A stretch of 64,000 bases of DNA from contig NZ_CP047452.1 in the NCBI RefSeq assembly GCF_030440595.1, forward strand, positions 496,001 through 560,000, given 5' to 3'. The stretch's first letter is position 1. Each line of letters opens with the position of its first letter. Under the pieces are notes generated by a model. That model was not told the origin of the DNA. It saw only the letters and a list, made by a program, of their open reading frames with translations, and searched no databases. A program made the translations under genes and the position numbers. The stretch is from Corynebacterium glucuronolyticum DSM 44120. GTDB lineage: Bacteria; Actinomycetota; Actinomycetes; Mycobacteriales; Mycobacteriaceae. Of the stretch, positions 8,654 to 16,005 are shown piece by piece.

Positions 8654-9726
8654 TACGCCTTACCTCCGGCAGCAGAGTTGGGATCGAGGGCGTCGCGGAG
8701 GCCGTCGGCGAGGAAGGCCACCGAGACGGTGAGCATGGTGAGGATGGCTGCGGGGAAGAAGAATTCCCACGGAGAGGCCTCCACGTTCTTGGCGCCGTTG
8801 GCCAAGAGCGTACCGAGGGAAACGTCGGGGATTTTCACACCCAGTCCCAGGAAGGACAAGCCCGTCTCACTCATGACGGCGGAAACAACGCCTAGGGTTA
8901 GGTAGATGGCCAGGAGCGAGGCGATATTGGGGATCATGTGCCTAAGCACGATCTTCCACGTGGGCACGCCCATGTAGCGGGAGGCGGCGATGAATTCGCG
9001 CTCACGAACCGAGATGGACATGGACCAAATAACACGCGCACTGAACATCCAGCCGAAGGCGATGAGGACGATGGTGAGGATCTTCCAGTCACCGCCGGAA
9101 CCGCTCACCATGAGGCCGATGAGGAGGAACGAGGGGATGACCAAGAGGAAGTGAATGAGTGCGAGGATGATCTTCTCCGCCGTGCCGCCGAGGAGGGCTG
9201 CGGTGGTGCCAACGATGGCGGCGATGACGATGGTGGCGATGGACACGCTCGAGGCGATGATCATTGACCTGCCTAGACCGTGAACGGCCATGGCAAAAAG
9301 GTCGTTTCCGGCGGAGGTGGTGCCAAAGTAATGCTCACCACCTGGCGGTACGGCCAGCGACATGAAGTCCGGGTCATCGTAGGACCACGGGGTAAGGAAC
9401 CTGCCAAATACCGCGAATAGAAGAAGAATGAGCAGAACAATAAGGCCGACCACGGCTGGTTTGTTGCGCATGAAACGCCTGTAGTACAGCGTGGATTTTT
9501 TCATCGGGCGCGCCACGGAATGATCCGCGACGGGTGCGTTGGGGTTCTGCTGGGCCTCTACGCGCCTGATATCGTCCATCTCATCTTCCACGATGGCCGT
9601 GACGCCGGCCTGGTTGGTGGGGTCAGAGTGTGGGCTGAAATCACCGGTTGGGTTGTTGAGCGCCGAAGCCGGTGGCAGCGGGGGCTGAGGGCCCTTTTTA
9701 ATGTATTCGGGCTTTCTTTCAGACAT
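8653..9726 (-). CDS. Peptide ABC transporter permease (DppC/OppC type)
   Basis: A 357-residue inner-membrane subunit. Residues 1 to about 80 are a long polar Pro/Asn/Asp-rich cytoplasmic leader (PQPPLPPASALNN), followed by the DppC N-terminal region YYRRFMRNKPAVVGLIVL and the binding-protein-dependent transport domain with the EAA-like loop EFIAASRYMGVPTWKIVLRH. About six membrane helices. It starts immediately after the dppB-type stop (TAAATG) and overlaps the ATPase gene by one base, so the importer is a tightly coupled operon. Confidence 0.93.
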   Translation of the reverse strand: MSERKPEYIKKGPQPPLPPASALNNPTGDFSPHSDPTNQAGVTAIVEDEMDDIRRVEAQQNPNAPVADHSVARPMKKSTLYYRRFMRNKPAVVGLIVLLILLLFAVFGRFLTPWSYDDPDFMSLAVPPGGEHYFGTTSAGNDLFAMAVHGLGRSMIIASSVSIATIVIAAIVGTTAALLGGTAEKIILALIHFLLVIPSFLLIGLMVSGSGGDWKILTIVLIAFGWMFSARVIWSMSISVREREFIAASRYMGVPTWKIVLRHMIPNIASLLAIYLTLGVVSAVMSETGLSFLGLGVKIPDVSLGTLLANGAKNVEASPWEFFFPAAILTMLTVSVAFLADGLRDALDPNSAAGGKA

Positions 9727-10710
9727 TTAGCTCACCCTCACTCGCGGATCAAGGAAGACAACGAACAGGTCGGACAACACTGCGCCGATAGCTGTCATGA
9801 ACGCGCCGAACGCGGCCACGCCGACGGCGCCGTGTATGTCATTTTTTTGGATGGTTTCCAGGAAGTAGCTGCCCATGCCGTTCCAGCCGAAGATCGTCTC
9901 CGTCATGATGGCACCGGTGAAGATGCCGGGGATGGAAAACGCGACTGAGGTGGCCACGGGGATGATGGACGTGCGCAGTGCGTGGCGCCTCACGGCCTGT
10001 GCCTTGGTGAGTCCCTTGGCACGCGCGGTGCGGACGTAGTCTGCGTCGATGTTATCCAGCAGCATGTTGCGTTGCATGAGGTGGTAACTGGCGTAGGAAA
10101 TGATGAGCAGACAGATGGTGGGCAGGATGAGGTGCTGGAAGCCGTCGACAAGCTGATTGAAAAAGCCTTCGACGCCGATGGATGAAGCGCCGGTGACGTA
10201 GAACACAGGGTGTCCCGCAGCGCGGTTGATGGAGATGGCGATCCAGACAACGAGCACCGAGGCAACAACCACGTGGGTGTTGAGGGTGATGAGTGAGACG
10301 ACCATCCAACCACGGTCTGCAAGCTTATCCTTGCGGGAGGCGGTGAAGACGCCGAGCGCGATACCGATGACAACAGAAAGGAACGTGGCCAAGAGGAGTA
10401 GCCGGGCGGAGACCCAGATGCGGTAGGAGATCTGCTCGTTGATGGAGTCTCCCAGCGGGCTTGAGCCCCAGTTCCAGTGGAGGAGAATCCCCGAAAGCCA
10501 ATTCCACCACCTCTCGGTGATAGGGACCTTATCGTTCAAGTTGAGTGGCTCAAGGATGGCGTCAATGCGCTCCTCCGGCACCGGGGGGCGGCGACCCGCG
10601 TAGTTTGAGCGTGGGTTAAGGAAGCTTGATGCCAAGAAATACGTAATGTTCACGGCTACGAAGATCATGGCTAACCAACCGGCCGCCTTCTTCAGCATGT
10701 ATTTCAGCAT
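9727..10710 (-). CDS. Peptide ABC transporter permease (DppB/OppB type)
   Basis: First gene of the importer operon, 327 residues with about six membrane helices. The EAA-type cytoplasmic loop DYVRTARAKGLTKAQAVRRHALR contacts the ATPase, and TETIFGWNGMGSYFLETI is the usual DppB C-terminal block. A weak AAGG ribosome site precedes the Met at 10710; a second in-frame Met is 12 bases downstream. The leader upstream contains two inverted repeats that could be operators (listed separately). Confidence 0.92.
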   Translation of the reverse strand: MLKYMLKKAAGWLAMIFVAVNITYFLASSFLNPRSNYAGRRPPVPEERIDAILEPLNLNDKVPITERWWNWLSGILLHWNWGSSPLGDSINEQISYRIWVSARLLLLATFLSVVIGIALGVFTASRKDKLADRGWMVVSLITLNTHVVVASVLVVWIAISINRAAGHPVFYVTGASSIGVEGFFNQLVDGFQHLILPTICLLIISYASYHLMQRNMLLDNIDADYVRTARAKGLTKAQAVRRHALRTSIIPVATSVAFSIPGIFTGAIMTETIFGWNGMGSYFLETIQKNDIHGAVGVAAFGAFMTAIGAVLSDLFVVFLDPRVRVS

Positions 10711-10920
10711 GTTTTTGCCTTGCTAGTCTCGGTTGCGCCACCCGTTATCCGGGCGACCACACTGTCTTCACTGTCTGGTTTGAGATACCAACCATTCAGT
10801 TGTGGGTGTTGTCACAATCGTAAGTCACAGTGACTTTTGAGGGGAATTGTTGAACAAGTGAATAGAATGAGAATTAAGGCATACTATACAAAAACGACTT
10901 TGGTTAAGTAACCTTTAGCT
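10711..10920 (-). promoter_or_regulatory. Leader and putative promoter/operator of the peptide importer operon
   Basis: On the minus strand a TATAGT hexamer (10883-10888) is a good -10, about 170 bases before dppB. An inverted repeat GGTTA-AG-TAACC (10902-10913) lies where the -35 should be. A second, AAGTCAC-A-GTGACTT (10822-10836), lies within the transcribed leader. Both are plausible repressor sites; neither matches a regulator I can name with confidence. Confidence 0.45.
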
Positions 10921-11361
10921 GGTCATATCCTGAACGCTGCCCCGGCCACCCCTGTCACGCTCATCAAAAAAAAACCACCCGTGGGGGTAGTTAGTCTCTC
11001 ATGCAAGACGCGGTGATGTCCGGCTCGGGGGACTCTCTCCATACGCCAAAACGCGAAGAATCGTCAGCCCGTAATCGACAAAGCGACGACGACACCACCG
11101 GGCATGCACGCATAGGCGCGCATAGGGTGGACACCATAAAGCTCGCGTCAGCGCCCGTTAACTCAGGTGAAGAAAAACAGACGGGACAAAGGGGCAGGCG
11201 CGAACCCTCAAGGCGGCGTGAGGCTTTGGTGGGGTAAAAGGCAGTGGTGGGATGGGCGGTGGAGGCGTGAAGGCCAGGTGGCGCGAAGCTGTGCGGTGAA
11301 ATGCGGTGGTATCAGGTTCGCGTCGGCCGACGTGGACGCGGTAGCGGGAGCCTAGTGGTAG
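10921..11361. other. Intergenic region, no gene recognised
   Basis: Open frames here (for example 11001-11237) are low-complexity, lack ribosome sites and look spurious. A run of A9 at 10966-10974 next to a short imperfect hairpin (10975-10988) could be a weak minus-strand terminator. Confidence 0.4.
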
Positions 11362-11401
11362 CAAAAACGGCGACCCGTTGCGTGCATTGGGATCGCCGTT
11401 T
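11362..11401 (-). terminator. Putative terminator of the secreted-protein gene
   Basis: AAACGGCGA / TCGCCGTTT (9-base stem, 19-base loop) ends in TTTTT on the minus strand, 42 bases beyond the stop of the 11443-11994 gene. Confidence 0.6.
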
Positions 11402-11442
11402 GAGATCACATTGTGCGAGCATAGGCACCCGCGTGGCCTTAC

Positions 11443-11994
11443 CTAGGGGAGCATGGCCTGGATGTTGGCGGGGAGCATGGGCTTGATCTGAGGCAGTGCT
11501 GCAACCAGACCTGCGAGCACCACGACCACGGCGCTTGCGGCAACGATGCCGATGCCTGCGTCTGAAAGCTCCTTGCCGTTAGGAGCACTCATGAACGCCT
11601 CGAACTCAGCAGAGCTCGCGGGCATGTCCTTGCCGGCAGCGCAGGCTCGCAGAGCGGGGAGCGTGGTCCTGTAGGCTTTGTGGATTTCCTTGATCTCCTT
11701 CGTCGCCTTTTTGTACTCTGCTTCCGAGATCTCGTGACGCGCGTACGCCTGATCGTAGTCTTTGAGCTGAGTCTCCAAGGTGAGCTCTATATCTGTGACC
11801 GAGTCTCGTGCTTCTTGGCGAGTCGTGTTCAGCGTTTTACTATTCTGAATCTGCTGTTCGTAGTCGGTGAAAGTAAGCACGCACGTATCCCCGTTGACCT
11901 TAACTGCGGCGGCGTTGGCGGCGGGTGTGCAGATGCCGGTGGCAAGTGCTGTTGCGGTGATGGTGGCGATGGCACTCTTCTTCAGGGTCGACAT
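11443..11994 (-). CDS. Secreted, C-terminally membrane-anchored helical protein (paralogue of 32890-33654)
   Basis: A 183-residue protein of unknown function. It has a Sec signal peptide (MSTLKKSAIATITATALATG with cleavage likely after AANA), a conserved GDTCVLTFTDYE block, a long charged helical middle, the motif LPALRACA, and a C-terminal hydrophobic helix (GIGIVAASAVVVVLAGLVAALP) followed by IKPMLPANIQAMLP. The two cysteines (in DTC and RACA) could form a disulfide. The same order of elements is found in the gene at 32890-33654, so the two form a family. AAAGGGA precedes the ATG. The promoter has a C9 tract inside its spacer, suggesting variable expression. Confidence 0.75.
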   Translation of the reverse strand: MSTLKKSAIATITATALATGICTPAANAAAVKVNGDTCVLTFTDYEQQIQNSKTLNTTRQEARDSVTDIELTLETQLKDYDQAYARHEISEAEYKKATKEIKEIHKAYRTTLPALRACAAGKDMPASSAEFEAFMSAPNGKELSDAGIGIVAASAVVVVLAGLVAALPQIKPMLPANIQAMLP

Positions 11995-12048
11995 AGAAAG
12001 TCCCTTTCTAGGTGGATGCTCTTAATGAGCTGTGTAGAACCTGTTATA

Positions 12049-12077
12049 AACGTAGCAGGGGGGGGGAAGCCTGTCAA
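12049..12077 (-). promoter_or_regulatory. Promoter with C9 tract in the spacer
   Basis: On the minus strand TTGACA (12072-12077, perfect -35) is followed 17 bases later by TACGTT (12049-12054, TANNNT -10). Nine of the 17 spacer bases are a C homopolymer (12058-12066). The start codon of the secreted protein is about 50 bases downstream. A second TANNNT-like hexamer (TATAAC) overlaps but would give a 23-base spacer. Confidence 0.55.
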
Positions 12078-12291
12078 ACGCCTGAAAGTTCGTGTAAAGA
12101 AAGAGGAGAAGAGCGCGGAAGTTGTGGGTGGGACAGTGTGACTTGATTGTGGGGTTCAACGTGGGGAGATGGAGGACGAATAGCCCCGCCCCTTTCCCGT
12201 GCGCGCCGTATCTTTGAGCACGGGGTGTGTTTCGGGGCGGGGTGCTGGTCAGAGACTTGTGGCCTGGCCGGGAGGTTGTGTATTTGGGTGT

Positions 12292-13197
12292 TTATGCGCC
12301 CGTGGCGAGCTCCCCGGAGTACACGTTGAGGCGGTCGGGCTTGGCAAAGCCGGCGAGGAAGAAGCCTTCCGAACGGGCGAGCTCGACGGCGAGGGAGGTG
12401 GGGGCACCGACGGCGACGAGACCGGGGATGCCCGCCATGAGGGCCTTTTGGACGAGCTCAAACGAGGCGCGCGAAGACATGACGATGAGCGCGTCGCGAG
12501 CCGGGAGTGCGTCCCCCAAAAGTAAGGAGCCGATCACCTTGTCCAGGGCGTTGTGTCGTCCGACATCCTCGCGCAAGACGTGGAGGTCAAAGCCACCGTT
12601 TGTGTTTGGCAGGAAGAGCGACGCGGCGTGCGAGCCGCCCGTCTTGCGGAACGCCACCTGCTGCTTCCTTGCCACGGCGGGAAGCTTTACAAGGACCGCT
12701 GGGTTAAATGCCTGCGGCGTGAAAGCAAACGGTAACCGCTTGGTCAGCTGCTCAATTGAAGCCGTGCCGCACACGCCACACGCGGAGGTAGTCAGTGTGC
12801 GTCTTCTTAGCGCGTCGACGGTGGGGATGTCCTTGCCGAGGGTGATCGGCCGTGCAGCGTCGTCTGCAGTGCCTGCTGCCACCTCTAGTAGACCGTTGGG
12901 CATGTCCACGTCGAGCACGTTGTACGTGTTCACGCCGTCGGGGGTAGTGCCCGCGCAATAGCGGGCTGTGGAAATTTCCTCCTTGCTCGCGATGAGGCCC
13001 TCGGAGAACAAGAACCCGTGCGCCAACTCGATATCGTGGCCGGGCGTGCGCATCGTCGTTGTCAGCGACGTCCCGTTGACACGGATCTCCAGGGGCTCCT
13101 CCACGATGACGGTATCGGCACGAGTATCCGTGCCGTAGGTTCCGTCGTCGTGGATCTCTACCTGGGTGACAGGAAAACCGGTGGTGATTCGACCCAT
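12292..13197 (-). CDS. fdhD: Formate dehydrogenase accessory sulfurtransferase FdhD
   Basis: FdhD (301 residues) transfers sulfur from a cysteine desulfurase to the molybdenum cofactor and is needed for active formate dehydrogenase. The catalytic pair is seen in SACGVCG. Other family blocks are EEPLEIRVNG, MRTPGHDIELAHGFLFSEG and REDVGRHNALDKVIGS. It starts 6 bases after the fdhF stop, so it is last in the DUF6457-fdhF-fdhD operon. No clear terminator was found downstream. Confidence 0.95.
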   Translation of the reverse strand: MGRITTGFPVTQVEIHDDGTYGTDTRADTVIVEEPLEIRVNGTSLTTTMRTPGHDIELAHGFLFSEGLIASKEEISTARYCAGTTPDGVNTYNVLDVDMPNGLLEVAAGTADDAARPITLGKDIPTVDALRRRTLTTSACGVCGTASIEQLTKRLPFAFTPQAFNPAVLVKLPAVARKQQVAFRKTGGSHAASLFLPNTNGGFDLHVLREDVGRHNALDKVIGSLLLGDALPARDALIVMSSRASFELVQKALMAGIPGLVAVGAPTSLAVELARSEGFFLAGFAKPDRLNVYSGELATGA

Positions 13198-13203
13198 GAA
13201 GGC

Positions 13204-15513
13204 TTAATCAGCGTCCTGGTCAAAATCGTGAGCGGACACGCCGAGCGGCTCAAGCCGGACGAGGGTGGACTTGGAAATCGGCGTGTGCGACTTCTCCACA
13301 AAGCTATCCAGCGGAATCAGAACGTTCGCCTCCGGCATGTACGCTGCCACGCAGCCCATGGCCGTGTCGTACTCCACCACGCGGAAGTTCGGGGCGCGGC
13401 GCTCACCGTCGGGCGCGACGGAAACGATATCGACGAGGTCGCCACCCTTGAGACCCTGCTTGTAGCAGTCCTGCGGGTTGACGAACACGACGCGCCGGCC
13501 GTTCTTAATGCCACGGTAGCGATCGTTGAGACCGTAAATGGTGGAGTTGTACTGGTCGTGGGAGCGAATCGTATTGAGTGTGAAGTAGCCCTCCGGGACA
13601 TGCAGAACCTCCAGCTTGTTCACCGTAAGGTGCGCCTTGCCGTCCGCCGTGGTGAACTTGCGCTCACGGGGGCCGTTGGGTAGAAGGAACCCGCCGGGGT
13701 GCTTGATCCGCTCGTTGTAATCGTCAAAGCCGGGGATCGTCGCCTCGATATGGTTGCGCACCACCGAGTAATCGTCGATCATCGGGCGCCAGTACTTGTC
13801 CTCAGGGAAGAGACGGTCGCCGATCTCGCCGATCATCTCCACCTCGGAGCGCAGGTCGAGGTCCTCGTTGTGGCGGGACTTGCCACCAGAAGCGTGAACC
13901 GCACCCTGGGAATCCTCCACAGTCACCACCTGGCGGCCGGAGAGCTGCTCATCAAGATCGGTGCGCGCCTTTGCCGGCAGGATGATGGATACCTTGCCCG
14001 GGTGCGCGTGCGTGTTGTTCAACTTGGTGGAAACGGACACTGTCATGTCCATGGAGTCCATGGCGTGCTCAGAGGCGTTGGTGTCGCTCGTGACGCGGAC
14101 AAAGTTGCCACCGAGCTGCCAGAAGAACGAAGCTTTACCGTCGCGCATGCCACGGAGGGCATCCACCGTCGACCAGCCCGGCTCACGCGGACACGTGAAC
14201 CCGAACTCCTTCTCCAACGCGGCGTAGAAGGACTCGGGCATCTCCTCGGCAATGCCCACCGTGCGATCGCCCTGCACGTTGGAGTGGCCACGCAACGGGG
14301 CGGTGCCCGCGCCGGGCTTGCCAATGTTGCCGGTGAGCAGCAGGAAGTTGGCGATTTCCTGGATTGTTTCGATGGAATTCTTGTGCTGGGTGACTCCCAG
14401 CGTCCAGCTGACGATGACGGATTTTGCCTGCTCGACCATATCGGCGACCTCCTGCACGTCGTGCATGGTCAGGCCAGTGGCTTCGAGGTAATCCTTGTCG
14501 TCGAGGCTCATGATGCTGGCGATCGCCTCGTCGGCGCCCACGCAGTACTTGTCGAGGAACTCGTGGTCGATCGCATCGCGGCGGATAAGCTCGCGGTTCA
14601 GTGCGAGGAAGAACGCATGGTCACCTGCGGACTTGATCTGCAGGAAGCGATCAGAAATGTCGGTGCGACCACCGAGGACGTGCTCGGGGTTCTGCGGCTC
14701 CTGGAAACTGTTGGTGTACGTCTCGTTCAGTGGGTTGATCGTGACGATCTTGCCACCGTTGTCCTTGATCTCCTTGAGGACGGTAAGCATACGCGGATGG
14801 TTCGTGCCGGGGTTCTGACCGACGGAAATAAGCATGTCGGTGACCTTGAAGTCGGCGTAGGTCACACTGCCTTTACCCAGGCCAACCGTGGGGGCGAGGG
14901 CCTTACCCGTGGAATCGTGGCACATGTTGGCGCAGTCCGGCAGGTTATTAGTGCCGAAGCGGCGTGCCAAAAGCTGGAACATGTAGGCCGGCTCGTTGGC
15001 CGTGCGTCCGGAGGTGTAGAAAATGGCCTTGTTCGGATCGTCTAGCGTCTTGAGGTAATCGACGATGGTGTTGAAGGCCGTGTCCCAGCTCACCGGGTGG
15101 TAGTAATCATCGGTGCCGTCGTACATCATCGGCGTGGTGATACGTCCCTGTCGGCCGAGCCAGTAGTCGGTCTTCTGCCTCAGATCAGTAACGGAGTAAC
15201 GTTCGAAAAACTCGGGGTCGACGCGGCGACGTGTGGTCTCCTCCGCGACGGCCTTGGCACCGTTCTCATAGAACTCGACGATGTTGCGGTCGCCCATCGG
15301 AGGCTCAGGCCACGCGCACCCGGGGCAGTCAATGCCGCCGGGCTGGTTCATTGTGAGTAGCGGCAAGAGGGCGTTCTCGGGGATGGCGAACTTCATTGCC
15401 GTCATCACGCCCGGGATGCCTGCGGCTAGACGGTGTGGGCGCTCAATCTTCGGATTATCAAAGCGATTCTGCTTGCGAGGCTGCTCGCGTTTATTGTCCA
15501 CGGTCTTAGTCAT
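13204..15513 (-). CDS. fdhF: Molybdopterin oxidoreductase, formate dehydrogenase alpha subunit family (FdhF/YdeP type)
   Basis: A 769-residue molybdenum enzyme of the FdhF/YdeP branch, expected to oxidise formate to CO2 in the cytoplasm; no signal peptide. The early GGIDCPGCAWPEP motif is typical of this branch and may bind an Fe-S cluster. CANMCHDSTG, VGQNPGTNHPRM and GGKIVTINPLNE are cofactor-binding blocks, and the C-terminal part (TPISKSTLVRLEP) completes a full-length protein. There is no in-frame TGA, so it is not a selenoprotein. It is preceded by a long hairpin at 15565-15593 and is co-oriented with DUF6457 and fdhD, as in C. glutamicum, where this gene set is called FdhF. Formate as substrate is inferred from that context. 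Confidence 0.9.
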   Translation of the reverse strand: MTKTVDNKREQPRKQNRFDNPKIERPHRLAAGIPGVMTAMKFAIPENALLPLLTMNQPGGIDCPGCAWPEPPMGDRNIVEFYENGAKAVAEETTRRRVDPEFFERYSVTDLRQKTDYWLGRQGRITTPMMYDGTDDYYHPVSWDTAFNTIVDYLKTLDDPNKAIFYTSGRTANEPAYMFQLLARRFGTNNLPDCANMCHDSTGKALAPTVGLGKGSVTYADFKVTDMLISVGQNPGTNHPRMLTVLKEIKDNGGKIVTINPLNETYTNSFQEPQNPEHVLGGRTDISDRFLQIKSAGDHAFFLALNRELIRRDAIDHEFLDKYCVGADEAIASIMSLDDKDYLEATGLTMHDVQEVADMVEQAKSVIVSWTLGVTQHKNSIETIQEIANFLLLTGNIGKPGAGTAPLRGHSNVQGDRTVGIAEEMPESFYAALEKEFGFTCPREPGWSTVDALRGMRDGKASFFWQLGGNFVRVTSDTNASEHAMDSMDMTVSVSTKLNNTHAHPGKVSIILPAKARTDLDEQLSGRQVVTVEDSQGAVHASGGKSRHNEDLDLRSEVEMIGEIGDRLFPEDKYWRPMIDDYSVVRNHIEATIPGFDDYNERIKHPGGFLLPNGPRERKFTTADGKAHLTVNKLEVLHVPEGYFTLNTIRSHDQYNSTIYGLNDRYRGIKNGRRVVFVNPQDCYKQGLKGGDLVDIVSVAPDGERRAPNFRVVEYDTAMGCVAAYMPEANVLIPLDSFVEKSHTPISKSTLVRLEPLGVSAHDFDQDAD

Positions 15514-15564
15514 GCCACCATTGTATAGGTATAGGCAAAAAAGACGGACTTATAATATGCATCT

Positions 15565-15593
15565 GTGGGTGACCAGCGGTTTTGGTCACCCAC
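15565..15593 (-). other. Perfect 10-base stem-loop between DUF6457 gene and fdhF
   Basis: GTGGGTGACC / GGTCACCCAC with a 9-base loop lies just after the DUF6457 stop. It has no T tract on either strand, so it is more likely an mRNA stability or processing element, or an operator, than a terminator. Confidence 0.6.
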
Positions 15594-15601
15594 TGGGGGT
15601 C

Positions 15602-15886
15602 TTAGGCTTCGCCTTCGTCTGCGGGGTACTTTTCCTCGATGATCTTGACCAGCGCCTTGATCGATTCGAGTGCGCGGTCGGCGGAGACCTTCGCGTCCGC
15701 ACCCGCCCCGACCTGCCCCGCAGATACGCCGACGAGGAATGCCGTCAGAGGGGCCGCTGGCCGTGACGGTCCGTGCGCCACGTGCTTGGTAAGATCCAGG
15801 AGGTCGTTGATGCGCGGCTGGAGGATTTCGTAGTCAACGTCCAGTTCCTTCGCCGCGTCGCGCAGCCATTGTTCAAAGTCACCCAT
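15602..15886 (-). CDS. DUF6457 domain protein of the formate dehydrogenase operon
   Basis: A 94-residue soluble acidic helical protein, first gene of the fdhF-fdhD unit. The sequence MGDFEQWLRDAAKELDVDYE followed by a segment ending DLLDLTKHVAHGPSRPAAPLTAF matches the small protein found beside fdhF in corynebacteria and other Actinobacteria (DUF6457). Function is unknown; the linkage suggests a role in molybdenum cofactor handling or dehydrogenase maturation. AAAGGACG-type ribosome site upstream. Confidence 0.8.
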   Translation of the reverse strand: MGDFEQWLRDAAKELDVDYEILQPRINDLLDLTKHVAHGPSRPAAPLTAFLVGVSAGQVGAGADAKVSADRALESIKALVKIIEEKYPADEGEA

Positions 15887-15933
15887 GGTTCGTCCTTTCT
15901 TTTTGCTTGTCGACGCGCACCTGCTCGCCCGTC

Positions 15934-16005
15934 TACACGTGTAAGTAGGTATACACGTGTAAATAGATACACGCGTGCAAGTAGGTATACGCGTAGATAA
16001 CAGTG
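15934..16005. repeat. Four 18-base iterons with TACACGTGTA palindrome core
   Basis: Units start at 15934, 15952, 15970 and 15988. The first two hold the perfect palindrome TACACGTGTA; the third (CACGCGTGCA) and fourth (TACGCGTAGA) are degenerate. They lie 48-120 bases upstream of the DUF6457-fdhF-fdhD operon, where a regulator would bind. Confidence 0.7.

Follow-up and report, generated by a model that had tools for sequence, protein, structure and literature searches.

Upstream of a 183-aa ORF of Corynebacterium glucuronolyticum DSM 44120, nine consecutive cytosines lie between a TTGACA hexamer and a TACGTT hexamer. This arrangement raises the question of whether the run belongs to a promoter whose spacing, and thus strength, could change by gain or loss of cytosines. 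We analyzed the locus within a 64-kb window (G000:C1:496001-560000, where G000 is the 2.87-Mb single-contig genome), within the whole genome, and among 242 genomes of the genus.

A candidate promoter with a C9 spacer

The initial annotation, which gave no strand, described TTGACA and TACGTT as exactly 17 bases apart with nine of the bases being C, and this was correct, the pair being located on the minus strand at 12077-12049 (Table 1). The C9 run is placed wholly between the -35 and -10 hexamers, which is the promoter-spacer layout of the porA/opc type. The candidate promoter combines a -35 hexamer matching at 6/6 positions with the near-optimal spacing of 17 at a distance of 54 nt to the ATG, but its -10 hexamer is weak (3/6). 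A consensus scan with a threshold of at least 4/6 per hexamer listed no promoters at 9000-16000; it was silent at TACGTT because only three of the six TATAAT positions match. The TG two bases 5' of TACGTT (TGC-TACGTT), as read from the sequence, may form an extended -10 element, which could offset the weak match. The perfect TTGACA is noteworthy because well-conserved -35 regions are seldom found in C. glutamicum, according to PMC4046766.

Table 1. Features of the C9 locus (window coordinates) and the eight longest C/G runs, (a) to (h), of the genome
Feature	Position	Strand	Basis or remarks
-35 element TTGACA	12072..12077	-	sequence; 6/6 consensus match
Spacer, 17 nt, GGCTTCCCCCCCCCTGC	12055..12071	-	sequence
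Run (a): C9 (plus strand: G9) inside spacer of candidate promoter of 183-aa gene	12058..12066	-	sequence
Candidate -10 TACGTT	12049..12054	-	TAnnnT; 3/6 vs TATAAT; TGC just 5'
ACAGG direct repeat, copy 1, overlaps -35	12070..12074	-	sequence
ACAGG direct repeat, copy 2, 30 nt downstream of copy 1	12040..12044	-	sequence
Likely ribosome binding site AAAGGG	12002..12007	-	read from sequence
183-aa ORF, ATG at 11994	11443..11994	-	signal peptide, two conserved cysteines, C-terminal hydrophobic helix
Likely terminator of 183-aa gene, hairpin then T-run	11365..11402	-	8/200 shuffles fold equally well
G+C-rich hairpin after fdhD, without T-run	12184..12242	-	-34.7 kcal/mol; 19/200 shuffles fold equally well
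Run (b): C8 right after TTGACA, TATTAT at spacing 19, before 251-aa ORF	G000:C1:2631331		L050:1502, ORF L101:2893-3648
Run (c): C10 in signal-peptide codons of Rib-type surface gene, out of frame from ATG	G000:C1:2513843		L013:1501, L071:6995-9754
Run (d): C8 where LGFP-repeat gene splits into two ORFs	G000:C1:1735244		L048, L100:2309-4122
Run (e): C8 between Rib-type gene and neighbouring surface-type gene	G000:C1:2510852		L071
Run (f): C9 upstream of, or at start of, LysE-type exporter gene	G000:C1:1653316		L011
Run (g): C9 within intact 128-aa ORF, beside coiled-coil ORF	G000:C1:1963675
Run (h): G8, no clear gene relation	G000:C1:2757541

TTGACA occurs 19 times on the two strands of the window, and only two copies are followed by TAnnnT after 16 to 18 bases. 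The other copy lies inside a 719-aa ORF, and the C9 candidate is the only intergenic pair of this kind; no other C or G run in the window reaches seven bases. When the 297-nt upstream region was simulated 20,000 times with a first-order Markov model, 0.065% of the simulations contained such a hexamer pair and 2.1% a C9 run, percentages that are not clean probabilities because the region was picked for its motif.

The 183-aa ORF follows fdhD, which has the same orientation, after 297 nt and probably forms a separate transcription unit, because a hairpin with a T-run stands 3' of the ORF and, as weak backing, another hairpin follows fdhD. The hairpin at the 3' end was missing from the terminator scan, as its loop exceeds the length that the scan allows.

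In the encoded protein, a signal peptide was seen by eye, and an LP-rich tail follows the C-terminal hydrophobic helix. No Pfam family scored over its own cut-off in the protein, and no solved structure matched its model at E <= 0.001. A weak likeness to ribosome recycling factor fell below the cut-off and was taken as a common helical hairpin. The signal peptide and the hydrophobic helix, read from the sequence and from a modest model (mean pLDDT 71.2, pTM 0.58), suggest that the product is probably a small secreted, membrane-held surface protein. Small secreted proteins with LP-rich tails form a family with a match in 29 of the 242 genus genomes. In G000, its members are found at C1:82919, 597337 and 528887-529660 in addition to window 11443-11994, and the match at C1:82919 carries one TAG.

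Relatives of the locus

No relatives of the locus DNA were found in named genomes and viral contigs, or on plasmids. Among the genus genomes, a search with the upstream DNA found the site itself and four short matches, which cover 25-49 bases of the query. The protein search with the 183-aa product gave 12 matches, of which P0008 is named C. pyruviciproducens; P0008, P0018 and P0021, relatives of either this family or the Rib-type protein described below, carry the names C. glucuronolyticum or C. pyruviciproducens, with 62-81% identity to the query along all or part of its length. Of 14 upstream stretches of family members, taken from G000 and from relatives and in some cases matching only in part, the one at the 183-aa locus alone had a C or G run of at least seven.

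In three of the protein records, P0004, P0007 and P0009, the annotated start lies upstream of the promoter region, and the protein letters thus constrain the DNA of that region. As judged from these letters, P0004 (17 members) would match the G000 locus in codon count across the spacer and have TAY where the -10 hexamer begins, but no C run, so the spacing is seemingly older than the run. P0007 (1 member) and P0009 (15 members) lack ten codons relative to the G000 locus, and the gap would correspond to the 30 nt between the two ACAGG copies. Most of the spacer and the -10 hexamer would therefore be gone, indicating that the element is dispensable or replaced there; its loss in this sister lineage weakens the case for an essential role.

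The absence of the promoter region from P0007 and P0009 is also what would be expected if the -35/-10 pair were a chance match, with transcription of the gene beginning elsewhere or reading through from fdhD and the run having no role. The 3/6 match of the -10 hexamer points in the same direction, as does the hairpin after fdhD, which has no T-run and does not fold clearly better than its shuffles. We nevertheless consider a chance match improbable, since a perfect TTGACA at 17 nt from a TAnnnT and 54 nt before the ATG was so rare in the simulations, and no comparably good alternative promoter was noticed in the upstream region.

C/G runs in the genome and the genus

Runs of exactly 7, 8, 9 and 10 C or G numbered 23, 4, 3 and 1 in the genome (31 runs of at least 7), whereas a first-order model based on the window predicted about 606, 170, 48 and 13. 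Observed counts so far below expectation indicated that long C/G runs are avoided in this genome. Four runs of at least nine and four of exactly eight bases remain (Table 1).

Only two of the 31 runs, (a) and (b), are enclosed by a TTGACA-like hexamer on one side and TAnnnT on the other, with spacings of 17 and 19. Both have a perfect TTGACA and both precede an ORF with a signal peptide recognized by eye; the 251-aa ORF behind run (b) had no Pfam match at E <= 0.01. When the flanks were shuffled, two or more spacer-located runs arose in 0.5% of 2,000 shuffles for the 31 runs of at least 7 and in 0.12% of 5,000 shuffles for the eight runs of at least 8, under a rule (TTGACA-like hexamer of at least 5/6, TAnnnT, spacing 16-19 nt) that was fixed after both sites were known and that admitted spacing 19 owing to run (b).

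Two further runs coincide with breaks in surface-type genes. At run (d), the second ORF of the split LGFP-repeat gene starts mid-repeat. At run (c), the product of the Rib-type gene is identical to P0013, a record from another source, at 559 of 560 residues past the signal peptide. P0013 is in frame from the equivalent start and the G000 copy is out of frame at C10, so intact and out-of-frame versions of near-identical genes exist, with a sequencing error in either record being possible. Other Rib-type relatives vary in the count of codons contributed by the run. P0020, from a different contig, begins at an internal start of the Rib-type gene, which fits an out-of-frame copy and equally a truncated record. 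Any of the records compared may contain consensus errors at its long runs. For C. pseudotuberculosis, spaA frameshifts were reported together with a warning on homopolymer sequencing errors (PMC5406005), and the frame comparison at the Rib-type gene should therefore be taken with caution.

Next to the Rib-type gene, a surface-type gene region (L071:3129-6390) is spread over three ORFs. The coiled-coil ORF adjoining run (g) looks phage-tail-like.

A NucS match was present in the genome. MutS gave no match in G000, and the same search was positive in 11 of 14 control genomes. NucS was reported to be incapable of correcting indels, and DnaE proofreading may suppress them, as stated in PMC8228993. 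We tentatively propose, at somewhat less than even odds, that the genome carries a small phasome of at least four poly-C/G contingency loci on genes for surface or secreted proteins. In two of these the promoter spacing would change and in two the reading frame, and MutS would be missing from the lineage.

The genus was searched with two patterns. TTGA..C7..TAnnnT gave 19 matches in 17 of the 242 genomes vs 3 for the reversed control. Four of the 19 rows are one sequence, and 17 of the 19 were examined, the other two repeating that sequence; the gap limits of the pattern miss the C8 site of run (b). TTGACA-N0..8-C7 gave 17 matches, representing 13 distinct sites in 12 of the 242 genomes, vs 22 in 16 genomes for the reversed control. 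As this is not above the control, runs behind TTGACA are not enriched across the genus. G000 was the only one of the 242 genomes with two distinct sites of the latter pattern.

Two sites in other genomes were considered as further cases. A C9 site in G090 (TTGACA-18-TACATT) was rejected, because it does not read into the beginning of an ABC-transporter ORF but away from it, towards a convergent ORF. A C13 run in G144 (L061:1501 / L074) lies within TTGAAT-18-TAGCCT, seven bases 5' of the ATG of a likely leaderless gene, and a neighbouring paralogue of this gene, 71% identical, keeps the 18-nt spacing without a long run. No relatives of the C13 site with a different run length were found. The C13 spacer is a plausible parallel to the C9 promoter.

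Another reading of such sites is that the C-rich spacer is an operator for a regulator, with the run being part of the binding site. The C7 spacer runs of G145 and G216 sit in what we read as operator-like palindromes. The C9 spacer, however, forms no palindrome, and P0004 has not retained the run; we regard an operator as very unlikely.

The C9 element might also be an ordinary promoter, in which a C-rich spacer became a pure run by chance and drifts slowly in length with little or no regulatory role. The sister sequence P0004, which retains the spacing without the run, would agree with this, and so would the lack of a genus-wide excess of TTGACA-polyC and the one run among the eight of at least 8 that sits harmlessly in an intact ORF. 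In Cutibacterium acnes, run lengths follow clades, and the authors infer slow accumulation (PMC4746626), which is the behaviour expected of an ordinary promoter. Long runs are strongly depleted in the genome, yet among the few survivors are two in candidate promoter spacers and two at frame breaks of surface-type genes. We therefore judge an ordinary promoter to be a serious but rather unlikely explanation.

Comparison with known switches and a possible mechanism

Phase variation driven by repeats is well documented in Neisseria, Haemophilus and Campylobacter, and patchily so in Actinobacteria. The fimbrial switch of Haemophilus influenzae is a dinucleotide repeat between divergent promoters, unlike the C9 run. 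It is similar to the C9 locus in that indels in the promoter spacer control fimbriae (PMC9187656). Among the matches listed from the open-licence PMC literature, we found no Corynebacterium case of repeat-driven phase variation.

It had also been claimed that homopolymer spacer variation is known in pathogens, and the literature bears this out. According to titles in the reference list of PMC5084427, the spacing between -10 and -35 varies in meningococcal porA (van der Ende 1995), and meningococcal opc has a poly-cytidine stretch of variable size (Sarkari 1994). In both Neisseria meningitidis genes a homopolymer lies in the promoter of a surface-protein gene, and the C9 run likewise lies in a candidate promoter of a gene for a probable surface protein. 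The meningococcal genes differ in that variation and its effect on expression have been published there, whereas both would be predictions at the C9 locus, and in that they belong to another phylum with another repair background than Corynebacterium.

Nearer examples come from other actinobacteria. In C. acnes, HPT_37 (PPA1943) and HPT_26 (PPA1662) have poly-C in or at a promoter; that of HPT_37 lies between -10 and -35, and C5 vs C7 makes a 2-fold difference in expression (PMC4746626). Unlike C9, these runs are shorter and their lengths are linked to clades, and PPA1943 is the gene of an intracellular enzyme (PMC4746626). In Bifidobacterium breve UCC2003, slippage in a G-run controls a surface structure, sortase-dependent pili, but this proven switch acts in the coding frame; the authors mention additional G-tracts in promoter spacers (PMC9187656).

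We favour, with a probability of roughly 55%, the reading that the C9 element is a slippage-prone SigA-type promoter of the porA/opc kind, in which a change of tract length would alter promoter strength and the amount of the protein. A SigA-type promoter with a mostly-C9 spacer would drive the gene for the small secreted, probably membrane-held surface protein. Replication slippage would add or remove cytosines in the tract, and NucS-based repair would not be expected to correct this. The changed tract would move the -35/-10 spacing off 17 and weaken the promoter, C9 presumably being the stronger state, and the cells of a culture would come to differ in their amount of the 183-aa protein. The use of the promoter, variation of its tract, the effect on expression and a benefit to the cell are what we infer from the arrangement of the locus.

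This reading retains part of the switch that was initially proposed for the secreted-protein gene. What stands is the promoter-like pair at near-optimal spacing directly before a signal-peptide ORF, and slippage is favoured by the rare run length, the lack of a MutS match, the second TTGACA-polyC candidate in the genome and the frame difference at another surface-gene run. An on/off switch exceeds the evidence. A C. glutamicum SigA promoter search accepted spacers of 16-20 bp (PMC4046766), so one-base changes are possibly mild in effect, and in view of this and of the possible extended -10 element a graded response of the C9 promoter is no less likely than on/off switching.

Should the tracts vary, a single culture from this human-associated clade would contain a mixture of surface proteins, with consequences for typing and antigen work, and this NucS-positive genome without MutS would offer a simple setting for measuring slippage at C runs. 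If confirmed, the C9 promoter would add a Corynebacterium example to the known promoter-spacer switches of the porA/opc kind.
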